A DNA stretch of 42,269 nt from Rubricoccaceae bacterium (GTDB taxonomy: Bacteria > Bacteroidota > Rhodothermia > Rhodothermales > Rubricoccaceae), in NCBI GenBank assembly GCA_024639085.1, contig JAHEJB010000003.1, positions 6,779-49,047 on the forward strand. Direction: 5' to 3'. Made by a program: the position numbers and the translations under genes. The notes beneath the pieces are model-generated. The model was not told where the DNA came from and made no database searches. It worked only from the letters and a program-made list of their open reading frames with translations. Positions 4,613-42,269 of the stretch are shown one piece after another; within the stretch, counting starts at the first letter, position 1, and each line of letters opens with the position of its first letter.

Positions 4613-5473
4613 CTACGTGCTCAGCTTCTCGGTTCGAGGCTTAGACAGGAAACGAGGTCGAGACCATCCCGCGTCGCCTTCGCCTCCGACGCGGATGTCA
4701 CGCCTCTGAAACAGCCACGCTGCGAGCGCCGCGAAGAGTGCGCTGACAGCCAGCAGTCCAATAAACCAGGCCACGTTAAGGCCATTGATAGCGAAACCGC
4801 CCTGAAAGTATTCGTAGGGCAGCGCTCGCGCGACTGGCTTCAGATCCGCGTTCAGATTAGCAAAGCCCGACAGAAAGAACCCAGCCACCATCACACCGCC
4901 TGCCGAAGCCGCAGCCTTCCGTCGTGAGGACAGTAACATGCTCAACAAAAGCGCAATCATCCCGAAGACTAGCACAACTGCAAACGTCGACAGAAGCGGC
5001 AGCGCCATCTGCCCCCAACTCACGTCCATGGACGAGCCCCTTAGCGGGAGGACAAAGCCAAGCCAGCAAAGAGTCAGAATGGCGAGAGTGGCTGCAACGA
5101 AGGCTGCAAGACGCCCTCCGAAAAGTGACAGGCGGCTCACGGGATGGGCCATGATCAGATCCAAACGGCCACTTTCTTCATCGTCGGCGAGGAGGGCACT
5201 CCCGGCCAGGACGGCAAAAATGCCTAGAATCACCGGCAGCATCGCCAGTTGGCTGTCGAGAAAGCCTGCCGGCGTATTGATCGCGGTCATGCCACCGAAG
5301 AACGCCAGGAATTCAGGCGGATAGTTCTCGATGAACTGGAGCATCTGCTCCTCTTGTGAGACGTACACATCGTAAAACGGCACGACGACTAAGCCGAGGG
5401 CAGCCATCGCGAGGCCCCAGGCGAGGATGCGGCCACGAAAGCGAACCAGCGTATGGAGGAATTCAGCGCCCAT
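4613..5473 (-). CDS. ABC-2 type transporter permease
   Basis: This membrane subunit of an ABC exporter is about 286 residues from the ATG at 5473. It has roughly six hydrophobic segments, starting with GRILAWGLAMAALGLVVVPFY and ending with FIGLLAVSALFAALAAWLF. The cytoplasmic loop after the second helix contains DDEESGRLDLIMAHPVSR, typical of ABC-2 permeases that pair with CcmA-like ATPases. The reading frame stays open upstream to 5596, but the ATG at 5473 follows the ATPase stop codon by one base (TAA G ATG), so the shorter start is preferred. Cargo is unknown; drugs, lipids or peptides are all possible. Confidence 0.88.
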   Translation of the reverse strand: MGAEFLHTLVRFRGRILAWGLAMAALGLVVVPFYDVYVSQEEQMLQFIENYPPEFLAFFGGMTAINTPAGFLDSQLAMLPVILGIFAVLAGSALLADDEESGRLDLIMAHPVSRLSLFGGRLAAFVAATLAILTLCWLGFVLPLRGSSMDVSWGQMALPLLSTFAVVLVFGMIALLLSMLLSSRRKAAASAGGVMVAGFFLSGFANLNADLKPVARALPYEYFQGGFAINGLNVAWFIGLLAVSALFAALAAWLFQRRDIRVGGEGDAGWSRPRFLSKPRTEKLST

Positions 5474-5474
5474 C

Positions 5475-6386
5475 TTATTCTTCCTCCGTAGGGCTTTCGT
5501 CGGTTTGATAGTAGGCGAGGAATACGTCTTCGAGCGAGGCGCGCGTCGTTTCAATACGTGCAACTGGATAGGCGGCAAGCGCTTTGACGAGCCCATCCAT
5601 ATCGCCCTCTACTTGCAGCGTCATGCCGTCGAGATCGTCTTGCGAAAGCACCGCAAGACCAGGAACCCTCTCTAGAACGTCAGTATCGACAGGAGATTGA
5701 AACCGGACCTTCACTCGGTGAACGGCACGGTCTATGAGCGCAGCCGTGTTTGCCACTTCGACAAGTGTGCCTTCCCGAATTATGCCAACGCGCTCGGCAA
5801 TCGCCTCCACCTCGCTCATGACGTGCGAGGAGAAAAAGACGGTTGCGCCTTTCGCCTTTGCTTCGCGGATCAAGCCTTGCACTTCCTGCTGAACGAGTGG
5901 GTCCAGGCCGCTGGTTGGCTCGTCGAGCAGGAGGAGTTCTGGCTGATGCAAGAAAGCTTGGACCAGCCCAATTTTCTGCTTGTTGCCCTTCGAGAGATTC
6001 TTAACTGGCTGATCTAGATCCAGTCGGAGGCGTTCTGCCAGCACATTGACGTTGTCCGATTCCAATTTGCGTCCCCTCAGCGCAGAGAAATAGCGCAGGA
6101 TGCGACGTCCAGTCAGGTTGTCCTCCAGATGGAGCTCGCCGGGTAAGTAGCCAACGCGCGCTCGCACGCCCACTGGATCGGTCTGCGGATCCAGCCCAAG
6201 CACGTTTGCGGTCCCACTATCCGAGCGAATGAGATCAAGTAGACAGCGGATTGTGGTTGTTTTCCCCGCGCCGTTGGGTCCAAGAAATCCAAAGATCTCG
6301 CCGAGGTGCACGTCCAAATCGAGGCCGCGTAGAGCAATGACGCCGCCATACGACTTGGATAGCTTGTTTGTGGTAATAGCAGTCAC
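5475..6386 (-). CDS. ABC transporter ATP-binding protein (ABC-2/CcmA type)
   Basis: This 303-residue ATPase powers the adjacent permease. Walker A GPNGAGKT is at about 36-43, the signature LSKGNKQKIGL near 131, Walker B LLLLDEPTSGLDP at about 151-163, and the switch His in SSHVMSE near 188. The C-terminal 80 residues form the accessory domain common in drug/lipid ABC-2 ATPases. The start is GTG at 6384-6386, immediately before MTAITTNKLSKSYG. It forms a tight two-gene unit with the permease. The VanZ-like gene upstream on the same strand is 105 bp away. Confidence 0.92.
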   Translation of the reverse strand: MTAITTNKLSKSYGGVIALRGLDLDVHLGEIFGFLGPNGAGKTTTIRCLLDLIRSDSGTANVLGLDPQTDPVGVRARVGYLPGELHLEDNLTGRRILRYFSALRGRKLESDNVNVLAERLRLDLDQPVKNLSKGNKQKIGLVQAFLHQPELLLLDEPTSGLDPLVQQEVQGLIREAKAKGATVFFSSHVMSEVEAIAERVGIIREGTLVEVANTAALIDRAVHRVKVRFQSPVDTDVLERVPGLAVLSQDDLDGMTLQVEGDMDGLVKALAAYPVARIETTRASLEDVFLAYYQTDESPTEEE

Positions 6387-7916: not shown

Positions 7917-8235
7917 AAGCCACAACGAGAAGCCCGAACGAGAGTAGAAGCGCAACAATATTTAGCCCAACCAGCAGCGCGAACGTAGCAAGCGTCGTGC
8001 GCTTGGACTTCTGGCGAACAAACGTAATGGCCGTGTAAACCCCAATACCAAGGCACAGTGCCAGCCAAGTGTATATCGCCATGTTGACGCCGCTCACGTT
8101 CCGACAGCCCAGCGTCGAGAAGCCGAGCATCAAGAGTCCCACGAGGCCAACGGCGAACGTCACAAGAAGTGTTGCCGCTACGAGACCAGCATTCTGATTG
8201 GAAGAACGTGGTGGGTTAGGATTTGGCGTTTCCAT
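7909..8235 (-). CDS. Small three-helix membrane protein next to the zinc-ribbon gene
   Basis: This 108-residue protein has a polar, Pro/Asn-rich N-terminus (METPNPNPPRSSNQNAG) followed by three membrane segments: LVAATLLVTFAVGLVGLLML, MAIYTWLALCLGIGVYTAI and LATFALLVGLNIVALLLSFGLL. There is no recognised domain. Its ATG shares one base with the stop codon of the upstream zinc-ribbon gene (TAATG), so the two are translationally coupled. It resembles the following small membrane protein in size and helix layout, which suggests two related subunits or an old duplication, but residue identity is too low to claim this. Confidence 0.72.
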   Translation of the reverse strand: METPNPNPPRSSNQNAGLVAATLLVTFAVGLVGLLMLGFSTLGCRNVSGVNMAIYTWLALCLGIGVYTAITFVRQKSKRTTLATFALLVGLNIVALLLSFGLLVVACG

Positions 8236-9320
8236 TAGCCCCCGCTGTTTGCGAGGAATACGATCAGGACAATCATAAGGATGATAGCGAGGACCGCCAT
8301 CGCGATCTTGATGGCGCTGTAGGGCCGCTCACCCTGTACGCCGCCAGTTTCCGCATCCACGGTGAAACGGTATGTCTTGGCACCGTACTGGTACGAGCTG
8401 ATCCAGATGGGCAGGAGGATATGCTTGTATGTGACGTCGTAGTAACGCGTGTTTCGCGTCATGATGCGTTGTTCGTCTCCGCCTATGTCGTTTCGGATGG
8501 CCTGATCGATGCGCGGAGCCATGATCGTGGTTGCCGCTTGAAAGCCGTCCTCCAATCCAACGGTGTAGTGCTCAGTCCGGAAGCCCGCGAGGTACGCGTC
8601 GGCGTAGGGAACGAGCCTTTGCAACGCATCGGCTGGCACGCTCGGGCGGTGGATTTTGGGCAAAGAGTTCGTGGCCTCCACAAGCACGTCATCAAAGTCA
8701 ACGTACACACGACCGAACGCGGGACTCCAGGATGTCTTCCTGACCTGTCGTGTTCGCATTTGCGACCGACCGTTCACCATCTGTGTGTACGTTTCCGTCG
8801 TGTAGTAGTACGTGCCGCGCTGGCCCGTGTAGTTCGTGATCGTCCGGGCATCGTACGTCCAATGAGGGATGTACATGCCGTTCAGGCCGCGTGCCGTTCC
8901 GGAATGCTGCTTGAGCTTGCCTGGCGCGAACCAGCGCCCCTTAAGCCACTCACGAAAGGCCTTCTGCGCATCCGGTTCCGTGATCTTGAACGGGAGGAGG
9001 CTTTGGGGCTTGATGGACCTCGTTGACGCGCCTTCAAGGACAACCGGCGATCCACAAAACGCGCACACTGCGCTCGTCTCATCATTCGGCAAGATCGTTT
9101 CAGCCGCACAGTTTTTGCACTTCGCTGTGATGGTTTCAACGGTGTCAACCTGGCCTTTCAGAGCCTGTACAGCCGCATTGAAGTCCATTTCACCCGCAGC
9201 AGGCTCCTGCCCGCTGATGCGGTTTTCTACACCGCAATACGGGCACACCAACGATTCCGTGCCTGGCCCGAACTCAAGGTCGGCACCACAGTTCGTGCAG
9301 GCGAACTGGCGTAATTCCAT
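8235..9320 (-). CDS. Zinc-ribbon protein with C-terminal membrane anchor (YdjG-like)
   Basis: This 361-residue protein begins with two double-CxxC zinc ribbons: Cys8/Cys11 with Cys26/Cys29, and Cys68/Cys71 with Cys86/Cys89. A Tyr/Thr-rich central region follows (about 100-330), then one membrane helix (about 336-357). Proteins of this type are often mislabelled 'primosomal protein N' / helicase', but no helicase motif is present. Zinc ribbon plus C-terminal anchor plus an SPFH neighbour matches Bacillus subtilis YdjG, part of the pspA-ydjGHI envelope-stress operon in which YdjG helps recruit the SPFH protein YdjI to the membrane. The same role here is an inference. It follows the SPFH gene by 95 bp. 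Confidence 0.8.
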   Translation of the reverse strand: MELRQFACTNCGADLEFGPGTESLVCPYCGVENRISGQEPAAGEMDFNAAVQALKGQVDTVETITAKCKNCAAETILPNDETSAVCAFCGSPVVLEGASTRSIKPQSLLPFKITEPDAQKAFREWLKGRWFAPGKLKQHSGTARGLNGMYIPHWTYDARTITNYTGQRGTYYYTTETYTQMVNGRSQMRTRQVRKTSWSPAFGRVYVDFDDVLVEATNSLPKIHRPSVPADALQRLVPYADAYLAGFRTEHYTVGLEDGFQAATTIMAPRIDQAIRNDIGGDEQRIMTRNTRYYDVTYKHILLPIWISSYQYGAKTYRFTVDAETGGVQGERPYSAIKIAMAVLAIILMIVLIVFLANSGG

Positions 9321-30571: not shown

Positions 30572-31510
30572 CTACCGCACCACGAGGCGTTGCGAAGCGC
30601 TTGCCTGGTCGCCAGCCATCCGGACAACGTAGACGCCCGGCTGTAAAGCATGTGTTGCCACCGCAACACGATGCTGCCCACTTGTCATCACTCCATTGAA
30701 CGCAGTGTAGACGCGTCGTCCCAGCATGTCGAAGACATCCACACGAACGGTCTGATGTGCGTCCACATAAATATTGACGCTGCTCATTCCCAAAGAAGGA
30801 TTCGGATATGGACGAGATATTCTAAGGTCAGAAACGGTAGGCGTCTCTGCCTCATTGGCCACCACATTGTCAAGGGTGAATTCAAACGTGCCCACTTCAA
30901 CGATATCGCCGTCGTAGAAGAATGGATAGCCATCGATCAGTGCAATAGGCTCGGCGGGCTGTGTGTCCGCATCGGGCGAAGTGTACATCGTGCCACTGTC
31001 AGTGCCCGAATCGTACGTGAACAGCGTGATCTCTTCCAAAGGCGACCAATCGGCACCGTCAAAAAGCGCCAAGCTATTTACGCCCACAAACCAGTCAGGA
31101 CTTGGGGCAAGCATACTCACGAGAGATACCAGCGGATAATCTGTGTTGAGATCGAACGTAAGCGCAACACTGCCGGGCGAGGTTCCAATTCCACCTCCGG
31201 ACAGCACTGCGAAGGCGCTTCCTGCCAAAATCAGGTCGTTGACCTCGCTTTCCAAGAGGGCCTTGCTACCGGTCTCCGCCATGCTTTCGATGCCTGGCGA
31301 CGCTAATTCACCCGGTTCCCACAGCGTTGTGGTCGCGTCATGCGCTGCGCCAATCAACCCGGAGAAATGTGGGTCTGGAGGGAAGTCGTCTGGATGCGTA
31401 CCAATGCTCCATGTGCTCTCAAAAGTCACGGTATACGTGGCTGTCGAAAACTGTGCAAACGCAGCTACCGGACACAGTAGAATAGCAAGTAGATGGGCGC
31501 GCATGATCAT
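30572..31510 (-). CDS. Spondin-domain secreted protein with T9SS sorting domain
   Basis: This 312-residue exported protein has a signal peptide about 3-19 (MRAHLLAILLCPVAAFAQ). A Spondin_N-type domain over about 24-210 shows YTVTFESTWSIGTHPDDFP, HFSGLIGAAHDATTTLWEPG, ASPGIESMAETGSKALLESE. A type A type-IX-secretion C-terminal domain covers about 235-312: PYPNPSLGMSSVNIYV, VRVDVFDMLGRRVYT, LQPGVYVVRM. It is predicted to be secreted to the cell surface. Spondin domains in animals mediate extracellular adhesion; bacterial roles are not established. Start ATG is at 31510, with another ATG two codons on. It lies 99 bp downstream of the lipoprotein gene on the same strand. Confidence 0.88.
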   Translation of the reverse strand: MIMRAHLLAILLCPVAAFAQFSTATYTVTFESTWSIGTHPDDFPPDPHFSGLIGAAHDATTTLWEPGELASPGIESMAETGSKALLESEVNDLILAGSAFAVLSGGGIGTSPGSVALTFDLNTDYPLVSLVSMLAPSPDWFVGVNSLALFDGADWSPLEEITLFTYDSGTDSGTMYTSPDADTQPAEPIALIDGYPFFYDGDIVEVGTFEFTLDNVVANEAETPTVSDLRISRPYPNPSLGMSSVNIYVDAHQTVRVDVFDMLGRRVYTAFNGVMTSGQHRVAVATHALQPGVYVVRMAGDQASASQRLVVR

Positions 31511-38754: not shown

Positions 38755-39195
38755 ATGGGCCTTCTTGATTTTATTCGCGACACGGGTCGCGATCTTTTCG
38801 GTGGCAACAAAGGCAGCGAAGCCGAGCAAATTAAAGCTGAGATCGAAAAAGAACTGGGCGGAAACGTCTCAAACCTCGGCGTGATGTTTAATGAGGGCAA
38901 AGTTTCCCTTCAGGGCGAAGCGAAAAGCTTAGCCGCAAAGGAAAAGGCAGCTCTCATAGCCGGCAACGTCAAAGGTGTTGAGTCGGTAAACGACGACCGT
39001 CTTAATGTGGCTGGCGCAGCTGCCCCTGCATCTACCACGCGGTATTACAAGATTCAGTCGGGCGATTCGCTCTCCAAGATCGCGAAGGAGTTCTACGGCG
39101 ATGCCAATCGTTACAACGAAATCTTTGAGGCTAATAAGGAGGTCATCAAGGACCCTGACCTCATCTATCCTGGCCAACAAATACGCATTCCGTAG
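38755..39195 (+). CDS. BON-LysM domain protein (Kbp/YgaU-like)
   Basis: This protein is about 146 residues from the ATG at 38755, with AGAGGT eight bases upstream. The N-terminal part starts MGLLDFIRDTGRDLFGG. A BON domain follows (about 25-80: NLGVMFNEGKVSLQGEAKS, VKGVESVNDDRLNV), and then a LysM domain (about 97-146: YKIQSGDSLSKIAKEFYGD, PGQQIRIP). E. coli YgaU/Kbp with the same layout binds potassium. There is no signal peptide, matching that cytosolic family. The gene's 3' half is the source of the relic at 40777-40990. Confidence 0.88.
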   Translation: MGLLDFIRDTGRDLFGGNKGSEAEQIKAEIEKELGGNVSNLGVMFNEGKVSLQGEAKSLAAKEKAALIAGNVKGVESVNDDRLNVAGAAAPASTTRYYKIQSGDSLSKIAKEFYGDANRYNEIFEANKEVIKDPDLIYPGQQIRIP

Positions 39196-39243
39196 GCATT
39201 CGAAGCCTTTTGCGGAACTCCCTTCATACGACGTCAATATTTT

Positions 39244-39277
39244 GCGCCCGGCCCTTGATCGTTCAATGGCTGGGCGC
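39244..39277 (+). terminator. Hairpin 3' of the LysM gene, likely terminator
   Basis: GCGCCCGGCC pairs with GGCTGGGCGC (one G-T pair) around a 14-base loop, 48 bp after the LysM stop, and is followed by TATTCT rather than a full T run. The equivalent region near 41040-41080 in the duplicate is degraded. Confidence 0.5.
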
Positions 39278-39308
39278 TATTCTGATAACAGTCTGGATTC
39301 TGGGGACA

Positions 39309-39373
39309 TATCCTAGGCTTCCGGCTTCTCACACCTCGTATTTCTCTCATCAACTGATAAAGGTGCACCAACT
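39309..39373 (+). promoter_or_regulatory. Leader block of T9SS gene 1
   Basis: TATCCTAGGC lies 65 bases before the ATG, TCACAC..TCGTATTTCTCTCA begins 45 bases before it, and AAGGTGCACCAA comes just before it. The same elements at the same distances stand before the second T9SS gene, while surrounding bases have changed. This suggests a conserved promoter/leader with AAGGTG as ribosome binding site. Confidence 0.5.
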
Positions 39374-40558
39374 ATGAGAGTTTCCTTACTCATGCGAACG
39401 TTTCTTGCAGCAGCGATCGTCGTTGCTGGCAGCAGTATCGCTTTCGCACAACAAGATATCGTCAGCTATGGCGGCGCAGCCGTCGATCTAACTGCCTTTG
39501 ACGATCTATATGACGGCTCGCTCGGCTCAATGGCCTGTGTAGCTGTGGACAATTCAGCTGGTACAGTTGTAGACATTACAGGTGTCACTGTTGACATGGA
39601 AATGTCTCACACATGGATCGGCGACCTTACCATAAAGCTCCAAAGCCCTGCCACAACCGTTACCACGTTGATGTCTCGCACGGGGTTTGCAGAGGCTGCG
39701 GACGATGGCATGGGTTGCTGCGGCGACAGCTCTGACCTTGATGGCGTCGTGATTAACTTCGCAAACGGGAACCCATTTGACGCCGAAACCATGGGCGGGA
39801 CTATCCTTGGAACGGAATTCGTCTGCACGACAGATGGCGAATGTGACTTCTTCCCAAATCCTGACCTAGGCCCAGGTACTGACCTCGCTGATTTCAACAC
39901 CGAGAGTGCTGTGGGCATTTGGAACTTCTGCGTTGGGGATAGCGCCGGCGGAGATAACGGTTTCCTGAACGACGTCACGTTGACCATCGACGGTAATATT
40001 CCTGTTGAATTGGTCGCATTTTCGGCTCAGACGAACGGCACTGCTGTTTCGCTGAACTGGGAGACTGCTTCAGAAACAAACAATGCTGGTTTCGAAGTTC
40101 AGATGCAGAACGGAGAAGACTGGGATGTACTCAGCTTCGTAGAAGGCAACGGTACGACCACCGAGGCTCAGACCTATTCGTACAACGCCGGTGACATGGC
40201 GGTAGGCACACACGCCTTCCGTCTCAAGCAAATCGACTTTGACGGTGCTTTCGAGTACTCTGACGAAGTTGAGGCAACAATTGAGACACCAGGATCACAC
40301 CTGATCTCCAGTGCCTATCCAAACCCGTTCAACCCACAGAGCCAGTTCACGCTCGCGGTTGCACAGGAGCAGCAAGTAACGGCAGAGCTCTTCAACACGC
40401 TAGGACAGCGCGTTGCGGTTCTTTTCCAGGGTACAGTTGAAGCCAACCAGGCGCAGCAGCTCACGATTGACGGCGCAGGCCTTGCCAGTGGCATGTACGT
40501 AGTACGTGTAAACGGCGAGCGCTTCGCAGACGCCTTCAGCGTAACATTGCTCAAATAG
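39374..40558 (+). CDS. Secreted T9SS cargo protein with proprotein-convertase P-like domain, paralogue 1
   Basis: This 394-residue protein has a signal peptide over about 1-25 (cleavage near AFAQQ). A P-domain-like beta sandwich follows (about 40-205), recognised from VDMEMSHTWIGDLTIKLQSP and VGIWNFCVGDSAGGDNGFL. A linker IPVELVAFSAQTNGTAVSLNWETASETNNAGFEV leads to an FN3-like region (landmarks VELVAFSAQTNG and LNWETASETNNAGFEV). The type A T9SS sorting domain covers about 310-394 (AYPNPFNPQSQFTLAV, LFNTLGQRVAVL, GLASGMYVVRVNG). It is predicted to be exported by Sec and then moved across the outer membrane by T9SS. The function of the free P-like domain is unknown; it often helps bind calcium or stabilise secreted enzymes. 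Its C-terminal half is nearly identical to that of the gene at 41168. Confidence 0.9.
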   Translation: MRVSLLMRTFLAAAIVVAGSSIAFAQQDIVSYGGAAVDLTAFDDLYDGSLGSMACVAVDNSAGTVVDITGVTVDMEMSHTWIGDLTIKLQSPATTVTTLMSRTGFAEAADDGMGCCGDSSDLDGVVINFANGNPFDAETMGGTILGTEFVCTTDGECDFFPNPDLGPGTDLADFNTESAVGIWNFCVGDSAGGDNGFLNDVTLTIDGNIPVELVAFSAQTNGTAVSLNWETASETNNAGFEVQMQNGEDWDVLSFVEGNGTTTEAQTYSYNAGDMAVGTHAFRLKQIDFDGAFEYSDEVEATIETPGSHLISSAYPNPFNPQSQFTLAVAQEQQVTAELFNTLGQRVAVLFQGTVEANQAQQLTIDGAGLASGMYVVRVNGERFADAFSVTLLK

Positions 40559-40614
40559 TCTATTTGGGTTCGTTCTGAACACCACATCGTGGAGTGACGA
40601 ACATAAGAGTACTA

Positions 40615-40649
40615 GAAACGGCCCGCTGCCAGGTGTAGCGGGCCGTTTC
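40615..40649 (+). terminator. Strong hairpin 3' of T9SS gene 1
   Basis: GAAACGGCCCGCT and AGCGGGCCGTTTC form a perfect 13-bp stem with a nine-base loop, 57 bp after the stop codon. The following TGTCTTC is only moderately T-rich, but the stem is strong enough to call a terminator. Confidence 0.75.
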
Positions 40650-40776
40650 TGTCTTCGAGCCGCTCAATATTTACGCGAACACATCAAGCCAGTATCAAAG
40701 AATTACGAGATACGTTTCGAGTTCTCTTCCCGCTAATTGTTCTCGTGTAGGCATCGACAGAAGATTTCAGGAAGGC

Positions 40777-40990
40777 GAGTCTGCAAATGATGACTGTCTG
40801 CGGTGGTGGGGGACTCCTGCGCCAACGTTTTCAACGCGCTAGGACAGTATTCAATCTGGCGATTCGCACCCCGAACCAACCAAGGAGTTCTTCGACGACG
40901 GAGACCGCTACGACGATATCGCGAGGCGAACTAAAAGAAAATCAAGACCTCGGACCTGACCTACTCAGGCTAACAAATGCCTATTCCTAG
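40777..40990 (+). pseudogene. Relic of the LysM gene 3' half
   Basis: This stretch aligns from end to end with 38980-39195 of the LysM gene. GAGTC-GCAAATGATGACTGTCT matches GAGTCGGTAAACGACGACCGTCT, with each run below twenty bases conserved by eye. In one frame (40852-40956) it reads QSGDS, then KEFFDDGDRYDDI, matching QSGDS and KEFYGDANRYNEI of the LysM protein. The end, CTAACAAATGCCTATTCCTAG, mirrors CCAACAAATACGCATTCCGTAG. Several frameshifts and in-frame stops (TGA 40957-40959) break it, and no start remains. Similarity may reach back to about 40741. A 67-codon open frame over 40787-40990 is fortuitous. The 40559-41167 interval holds only this relic, the terminator and the leader of the next gene. 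Confidence 0.85.
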
Positions 40991-41102
40991 AATAGTTGGT
41001 GGGCCGAACGGACCCGCATTCACCAAACGCCATTAATTCGGCTCGGCCCTTGATCCTTGTGTGGCTGACCTCTATTCTAGGGAAGTTGTGGGAACTGGGG
41101 TT

Positions 41103-41167
41103 TATCCTAGGCTCCTCGCTTTTCACACTTCGTATTTCTCTCAACAACCAAACAAGGTGCACCAATT
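41103..41167 (+). promoter_or_regulatory. Leader block of T9SS gene 2
   Basis: TATCCTAGGC at -65, TCACAC..TCGTATTTCTCTCA from -45 and AAGGTGCACCAA just before the ATG all match the leader of the first T9SS gene in sequence and spacing, so both genes are probably expressed in the same way. Confidence 0.5.
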
Positions 41168-42241
41168 ATGAGAGTTTCCTTACTTAAACGTGCTGCTCTG
41201 CTTGTGGCAGTGGGCCTCGTAGCGAGCCCGCTTTCTCTTGCACAGAACACGTATTCTTCCACCCCAAATTGCCCGATCATCAGTAATGGCGGTCCCTGTA
41301 TTGATGTGATTACCGTGCCTGGCACGGACACTGGAAGCGCGTCTGATGTGAACGTGGTCCTTTATATCGATCATACGTGGGCAGGCGATCTAGATGTCGT
41401 CTTGACGCATCCATTGGGTCCAACGGCCACGTTGATGGACGACACGTGCACGAGTGACGATGCCTCGTCTGCAAACCCATTGACGTTCGATGACGGTGCC
41501 GGACCAGTAGATTGTTCCGGAACAGGCACTGATCCGATCCCGTCGGCATCATATGACCCGGTAACACCTCTGAACGTATTTAACGCCCCTGCAGTTGGTG
41601 ACTGGACGATTTCGGTAGATGACATAGTTGGCGGAGATGACGGCGTCTTTGTACAATGGGACCTTGTTATCGACGGCATTCTGCCTGTCGAGCTCGTCTC
41701 GTTCACGTCTCAGGTCAATGGAACATCTGTGGCTCTGAATTGGGAGACAGCGTCGGAGACCAACAACGCCGGCTTTGAAGTTCAAATGCTTCGCGGTGAA
41801 GGCTGGGACGTACTTGGCTTCGTAGAAGGCAACGGTACGACCACCGAAGCTCAGACCTATTCGTACAACGCCGGTGACATGGCGGTAGGCACACACACCT
41901 TCCGTCTCAAGCAAATCGACTTTGACGGTGCTTTCGAGTATTCTGACGAAGTTGAGGCAACAATTGAGACACCAGGTTCACACCTGATCTCGAATGCTTA
42001 TCCTAACCCGTTCAACCCACAGAGCCAGTTCACGCTCGCGGTTGCACAGGAGCAGCAGGTAACGGCTGAGCTCTTCAACACGCTAGGACAGCGCGTTGCG
42101 GTGCTTTTCCAGGGTACAGTTGAAGCCAACCAGGCACAGCTCGTAACTATTGATGGCGCAGGCTTGGCCAGCGGCATGTACGTAGTGCGTGTGAATGGTG
42201 AGCGCTTTAGCGACGCCCTAAGCGTAACATTGCTCAAATAA
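41168..42241 (+). CDS. Secreted T9SS cargo protein with P-like domain, paralogue 2
   Basis: This 357-residue paralogue of the protein at 39374 begins with the same MRVSLL and a signal peptide ending near LSLAQ. The P-like domain (about 35-175) has DHTWAGDLDVVLTHPLGP and VGDWTISVDDIVGGDDG. It is about 37 residues shorter overall and strongly diverged from paralogue 1, including different cysteines (SSTPNCP, GGPCID, DDTCTS, DCSGTG). From FVEGNGTTTEAQTYSYNAGD onward the two proteins are almost identical through the T9SS sorting domain ending SVTLLK. The gene is complete, and its 3' flank is cut by the window end. Confidence 0.9.
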   Translation: MRVSLLKRAALLVAVGLVASPLSLAQNTYSSTPNCPIISNGGPCIDVITVPGTDTGSASDVNVVLYIDHTWAGDLDVVLTHPLGPTATLMDDTCTSDDASSANPLTFDDGAGPVDCSGTGTDPIPSASYDPVTPLNVFNAPAVGDWTISVDDIVGGDDGVFVQWDLVIDGILPVELVSFTSQVNGTSVALNWETASETNNAGFEVQMLRGEGWDVLGFVEGNGTTTEAQTYSYNAGDMAVGTHTFRLKQIDFDGAFEYSDEVEATIETPGSHLISNAYPNPFNPQSQFTLAVAQEQQVTAELFNTLGQRVAVLFQGTVEANQAQLVTIDGAGLASGMYVVRVNGERFSDALSVTLLK

Positions 42242-42269
42242 TCTATTTGGGTTCGTTCTGATCGCCACA

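Follow-up and report, generated by a model that had tools for sequence, protein, structure and literature searches.

The locus described here closes a stretch of 42,269 nucleotides of a Rubricoccaceae bacterium genome (assembly GCA_024639085.1, contig JAHEJB010000003.1, positions 6,779 to 49,047, called the window below), where two cargo genes of the type IX secretion system (T9SS), named A and B, stand behind a BON-LysM gene. At 38.7-42.27 kb the order is BON-LysM, cargo gene A, LysM relic, cargo gene B, all on the forward strand. The locus contains a frameshifted relic of the LysM 3' half, a repeated flank, tracts of gene conversion in the C-terminal sorting domains (CTDs) and cargo passengers of differing subtypes, and the sequences indicate that A and B are mosaics and not simple twins. 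Taken as a whole, a history of tandem duplication, relic decay, passenger exchange and CTD conversion is in our judgement rather probable. The window corresponds to contig C2:6779-49047 of its genome (G000; 2.83 Mb, 235 contigs), a fragmented assembly in which the contig end (49047, window position 42269) falls inside the repeat. The only other genus member found, the sister genome G001, has its locus on contig C100, which was matched by coordinates to JADFQN010000063.1 (Bacteroidetes bacterium isolate B7T1B5; L050). The main features, all on the + strand, are:

38755-39195 (+), intact BON-LysM gene, Kbp/YgaU-like, 146 amino acids (aa), parent of the relic (Pfam BON 2e-11, LysM 5e-11)
38980-39195 (+), LysM portion present in duplicate (ends of the local alignment)
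39213-39371 (+), 5' flank or leader of cargo gene A, copy 1
39374-40558 (+), T9SS cargo gene A, 394 aa: putative signal peptide, P-domain passenger, type A sorting domain (PF01483, PF18962, TIGR04183)
39452-39997 (+), passenger of A, P-domain subtype common to a gene on the unlinked contig C50 (tree, AU test)
40135-40450 (+; B copy 41818-42133), A-B gene-conversion tract in the CTD, 316 nt
40436-40555 (+), second tract in A, present also in a cargo gene on the unlinked contig C131
40777-40990 (+), decayed, frameshifted relic of the LysM 3' half
41009-41165 (+), 5' flank or leader of cargo gene B, copy 2 (by alignment to copy 1)
41168-42241 (+), T9SS cargo gene B, 357 aa: putative signal peptide, compact P-domain passenger, type A sorting domain (PF01483, PF18962, TIGR04183)
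41246-41680 (+), passenger of B, a compact P-domain subtype, closest to a gene of the sister species on G001:C45
42242-42269 (+), 3' flank of B, repeat of 40559-40586, ending with the contig

A decayed LysM fragment and a repeated flank precede cargo gene B

Alignments of the relic and of the flank were scored against 500 dinucleotide-preserving shuffles. Positions 40777-40990 aligned with 38980-39195 in 144 identical columns of 217, with a score of 130 compared to 20.6 ± 3.1 for the shuffles (best shuffle 34; z = 35) and a spacing of about 1797 nt between the copies (38980 to 40777). The initial annotation had placed a frameshifted LysM relic at this position, before the second T9SS gene, and in the shuffle comparison that it had proposed the similarity lay far above that of shuffled sequence. 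Relative to the intact gene the relic exhibited indels and stop codons and encoded a LysM protein in no frame. With the sister LysM as reference, the changes found only in the relic were distributed over codon positions 1/2/3 as 18/15/16, close to neutral. Both marks of a pseudogene, that is indels or stops and change independent of codon position, are thus present, and the decay that had been proposed for this LysM copy is borne out. Third positions of the relic changed somewhat more per site common to both species (16/40 vs 33/141), so that a short constrained phase is possible.

Upstream of the relic, no homology to the LysM 5' half was found (alignment z = 0), and a genome search for more LysM copies returned only the intact gene and the relic. 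A breakpoint inside LysM, as first proposed, is not proven. The LysM fragment of the sister species differs from its own LysM by 3/1/8 over the codon positions, mostly silently, which suggests that this copy was a working gene until recently, before being cut down. Position 38980, where homology stops within LysM, therefore need not be the original breakpoint, and the 5' half of the window copy may have been removed by a later deletion. The intact gene reached 156 bits against NCBIfam NF008399 (PRK11198, peptidoglycan-binding protein LysM; cut-off 134), and we take it to be of the YgaU/Kbp type.

The leader of gene B was identical to that of gene A at 114 of 159 positions (z = 35), and this sequence had no match elsewhere in the window genome or in the sister genome outside the LysM locus. 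Informative sites were counted among four genes, the two of the window (wA, wB) and the two of the sister species (sA, sB); in the flank, 38 sites paired copy 2 with copy 1 and 2 paired it with the sister species. Behind the stop codon, the 3' flank was repeated over about 28 nt, which is all that exists in copy 2. Relic, flank, CTD and 3' flank are thus homologous landmarks in the same order in both units, as had been stated for the intergenic landmarks and 3' flanks, and a single tandem event would be the source of relic and flank.

Cargo genes A and B differ in passenger subtype

In both cargo genes the TIGR04183/PF18962 sorting domain exceeded the cut-off, and the N-termini are hydrophobic, ending A-Q-Q and A-Q-N (putative signal peptides, judged by eye). 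SprA_N (PF14349), the component searched for the T9SS machinery, was present in both genomes with 287 bits in the window genome, and the products of A and B are predicted to be secreted via this system.

The passengers did not follow the pattern of the flanks. A and B were barely alignable over about 39460-39997 (aa identity 0.36-0.37), the match of passenger A to gene B was confined to the last ~60 residues, and a full-length duplicated cargo gene was not seen in the comparison of the two sequences. Passenger A showed 58% aa identity (E 6e-62) to the unlinked C50 gene, with which it has in common an insert that B lacks, and 44% to a second gene on C131. In the same way, the P-domain tree grouped A with C50 and B with the gene on G001:C45 (E 2.5e-8; ultrafast bootstrap, UFBoot, 97), and the approximately unbiased (AU) test gave p values of 0.069, 0.004 and 0.025 for the three topologies that unite the passengers of A and B. 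A control tandem cargo pair (G000:C115 and G001:C70) kept orthologous passengers, with 74% and 54% aa identity between the species; the passengers at the LysM locus exhibited no detectable similarity between window and sister species, and this mismatch is therefore not simply normal divergence. We infer that a passenger was replaced, as opposed to having diverged to an extreme.

The sorting domains contain conversion tracts

The CTDs of A and B are 87% similar overall, and most of this likeness is that of the 316-nt tract, where polymorphic third positions differed at 9/99 compared to 50/176 overall (permutation test, corrected p = 0.001). The differences between the two CTDs numbered 41 in the first 150 nt and about 11 over the next ~300 before climbing again, with 6 differences in 180 nt of the tract against 16.8 expected. 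The ratio of informative sites for and against the within-species pairing shifted accordingly along the genes: it was 38:2 for the flank, 2:12 for the proximal CTD, 37:2 within the tract and 7:5 in the distal part. Upstream of the tract, where 2 sites unite wA with wB and 12 favour other pairings, A and B are thus not nearest relatives, and 27/46 of their third positions differ there.

The second tract joins A to the unlinked C131 cargo gene, with 7/80 polymorphic sites differing compared to 131/352 overall (corrected p = 0.001, all sites); the corrected p was 0.022 on third positions among six close sequences, and 0.119 with twelve sequences included. Over its last 36 codons, A shares 93.5% identity with the C131 gene, compared to 81.5% with gene B. 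Because B and both sister genes agree in having the other sequence state in this part, the C131 gene is suggested as the donor of the distal tract of A. The excess identity is sharp-ended and significant against permuted polymorphic sites, as expected of gene conversion.

The initial annotation had derived both T9SS genes from one tandem duplication of about 1.6-1.8 kb, after which the cargo gene stayed intact. Such a duplication is still the best reading of relic and flank. It is not supported as a simple origin of both T9SS genes, in view of the passenger subtypes, the tract and the 2 vs 12 sites, and a cargo gene staying intact is unsupported as stated, the passengers being of different subtypes and the CTD likeness largely a conversion tract.

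Matches to this CTD numbered ~55 in G000 and ~85 in G001, a large sorting-tag family for small genomes. A distant further T9SS sorting domain lies inside the window at 30602-30895 on the - strand (G000:C2:37380-37673, E 2.4e-8). An orphan, frame-broken CTD with its terminator was also seen alone between two unrelated genes at L197 4780-5160 (G000:C131 ~5279-5659, - strand). It has 348 nt with 88% identity to an intact cargo gene beyond the next gene, its downstream neighbour is purB-like, and its terminator is also common to a third cargo gene (87-89% over ~97 nt) whose CTD differs greatly.

Hairpins of the locus

Two hairpins were found on the + strand:

39244-39277 (+), hairpin directly 3' of the intact LysM (fold z = -5.5)
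40614-40650 (+), terminator-like hairpin 3' of gene A, with perfect 14-nt arms (fold z = -5.2)

The LysM hairpin is gone behind the relic, with a fold z of +1.15 at 41035-41095. In both species the hairpin 3' of LysM is strong (in the sister, L050:6499-6529), its stems being altered yet still pairing, and behind the relics its copies are weak or no longer present. An Rfam Thr_leader match at 40568-40652 did not reach the gathering score and lies across the terminator hairpin; it was taken as chance.

The sister species and the family

The sister locus has the same layout, namely LysM, cargo gene, LysM 3' fragment, spacer and cargo gene, with other passengers: those of the sister pair gave no Pfam family above cut-off except for the tail, and passengers are alike in type within each species. 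The relics measure 214 nt in the window and ~98 nt in the sister, and each grouped with the LysM of its own species (window 12:7 sites, UFBoot 91; sister 8:1). In five family members, LysM stands beside aroB or a peptidase gene, and no such cargo CTD was found in ~5 kb around LysM; the cargo genes therefore probably reached the LysM locus within the genus. The gene downstream in the sister had no match in the window genome that would bridge the gap past the contig end.

The sister spacer (7967-8520) consists in part of a ~165-nt repeat resembling a miniature inverted-repeat transposable element (L050:8191-8356), which has terminal inverted repeats and ~40 copies at 87-98%. One weak partial match was present in the window genome, and this repeat probably expanded recently, after the species split. 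An M2-type dipeptidase-like gene (named by eye) lies between aroB and LysM in the sister (L050:3637-5607); it also stands beside LysM in the genomes G002 and G005, and the window lacks it between aroB and LysM.

Proposed history and alternatives

In the proposed history, a block of ~1.8 kb behind aroB and the BON-LysM gene, holding the LysM 3' part, its hairpin, the cargo leader and a T9SS cargo gene, would have been duplicated in tandem. The second LysM part, without a role, would have decayed along with its hairpin, and one of the cargo genes would have gained a different P-domain passenger via recombination with another cargo gene. Gene conversion would later have overwritten the sorting-domain ends, between the neighbours A and B (40135-40450) and between A and the unlinked cargo gene (40436-40555). 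Several results weigh against this history. The best topology uniting both passengers (AU 0.069) is not rejected at 0.05. Passenger third positions differ at 28/49 in codons for identical amino acids, near saturation and indistinguishable from the relic (35/71), so that very fast divergence after duplication is compatible with them; a synonymous-site clock of passenger against relic was likewise saturated and gave no decision. A single LysM-cargo copy was found in neither of the two genus members, both of which carry two copies, and the third-position distance between the relic and its own LysM (0.49) is about that between the LysM genes of the two species (~0.46), which makes the timing ambiguous.

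The same topology and third positions would suit one tandem duplication of the LysM 3' half with the whole cargo gene, after which the passenger of B evolved fast and the CTD was conserved. This alternative accounts for relic, flank, CTD and 3' flank in order, and third-position divergence overlaps between the proximal CTD (27/46) and the relic. We nevertheless hold it to be improbable: passenger A, with its insert, is far closer to the unlinked C50 gene than to B, the tract boundaries in the CTD are sharp, and the proximal CTD does not support the A+B pairing. Divergence is not uniform over the whole unit including the cargo core, which counts against a simple duplication only, since later recombination can explain it. 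An assembler might also have joined variants of a mixed population at the CTD, the assembly being fragmented with a contig end inside the repeat, but outside the tract at least ~25% of positions differ between the copies, the separately assembled sister genome has the same layout, and we regard such an artefact as very unlikely.

Within the favoured history of duplication, decay, exchange and conversion, the shared layout and the grouping of each fragment with its own LysM point to a genus-old pair under concerted evolution or to recurrent events; one event near the species split with concerted evolution and two events are both possible. A duplication before the split, with conversion then homogenising flanks and CTDs in each species, has to our minds nearly an even chance. 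It fits the layout in both known genus members, the five family members without a cargo gene behind LysM and the conversion active at the locus, but conversion must then also span the flank and the LysM end, and the passengers are wholly different between the species though alike in type within each. That the LysM-cargo unit was duplicated independently in each genus member, at a site prone to it, is a serious possibility, if one that we would not assume. The grouping of the relics with their own LysM, the within-species pairing of the flanks (38:2), the unequal relic lengths and a sister copy that was apparently coding until recently all argue for it. Against it, the identical four-part layout would have had to arise by similar events in both species, one older event followed by concerted evolution, which is demonstrated in the CTD, could yield the same pairing, and the distance of the relic from LysM is close to that between the species.

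Relation to known systems and significance

In Porphyromonas gingivalis, the gingipain/haemagglutinin family (rgpA, kgp, hagA) exhibits gene conversion and rearranged domains, with reshuffling of the adhesin and catalytic domains from strain to strain, and its diversity is ascribed to recombination between genes (PMC5266723), as proposed here for A and B; this work was the only relevant find in the literature on gene conversion in T9SS tails. Here, among neighbouring as well as unlinked loci within a single genome, it is the export tag itself that is converted and the passengers that differ, unlike in P. gingivalis. As in a common tandem segmental duplication that leaves a truncated pseudogene at its flank, a relic of the upstream gene stands before copy 2 and the order of landmarks is kept, but the coding core of B is not a copy of that of A. 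The intact upstream gene, by its NCBIfam score, resembles the Kbp/YgaU potassium-binding protein (BON and LysM); it matters here only as the parent of the relic, and nothing links its function to the cargo genes.

Duplication, decay and conversion between paralogues are ordinary, known processes; what is notable is the patchwork of the secretion tag, overwritten independently of the passengers at a neighbouring and at an unlinked locus. Because conversion overwrites the tails, high similarity of T9SS tails is a poor guide to the date of a cargo-gene duplication, and trees or duplication histories that are based on CTDs or entire cargo genes can mislead in Bacteroidota-like genomes. More speculatively, and we would not put it higher than a tentative idea, the T9SS sorting domain might serve as a homology handle in this genus, through which scattered cargo genes swap passengers while conversion keeps the export tags alike. 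If so, recombination through the tag would reshuffle the secreted surface repertoire, the LysM locus being one site where this is visible, and such tag-guided exchange of passengers, if general, would help to explain how one secretion system serves many unrelated surface proteins.
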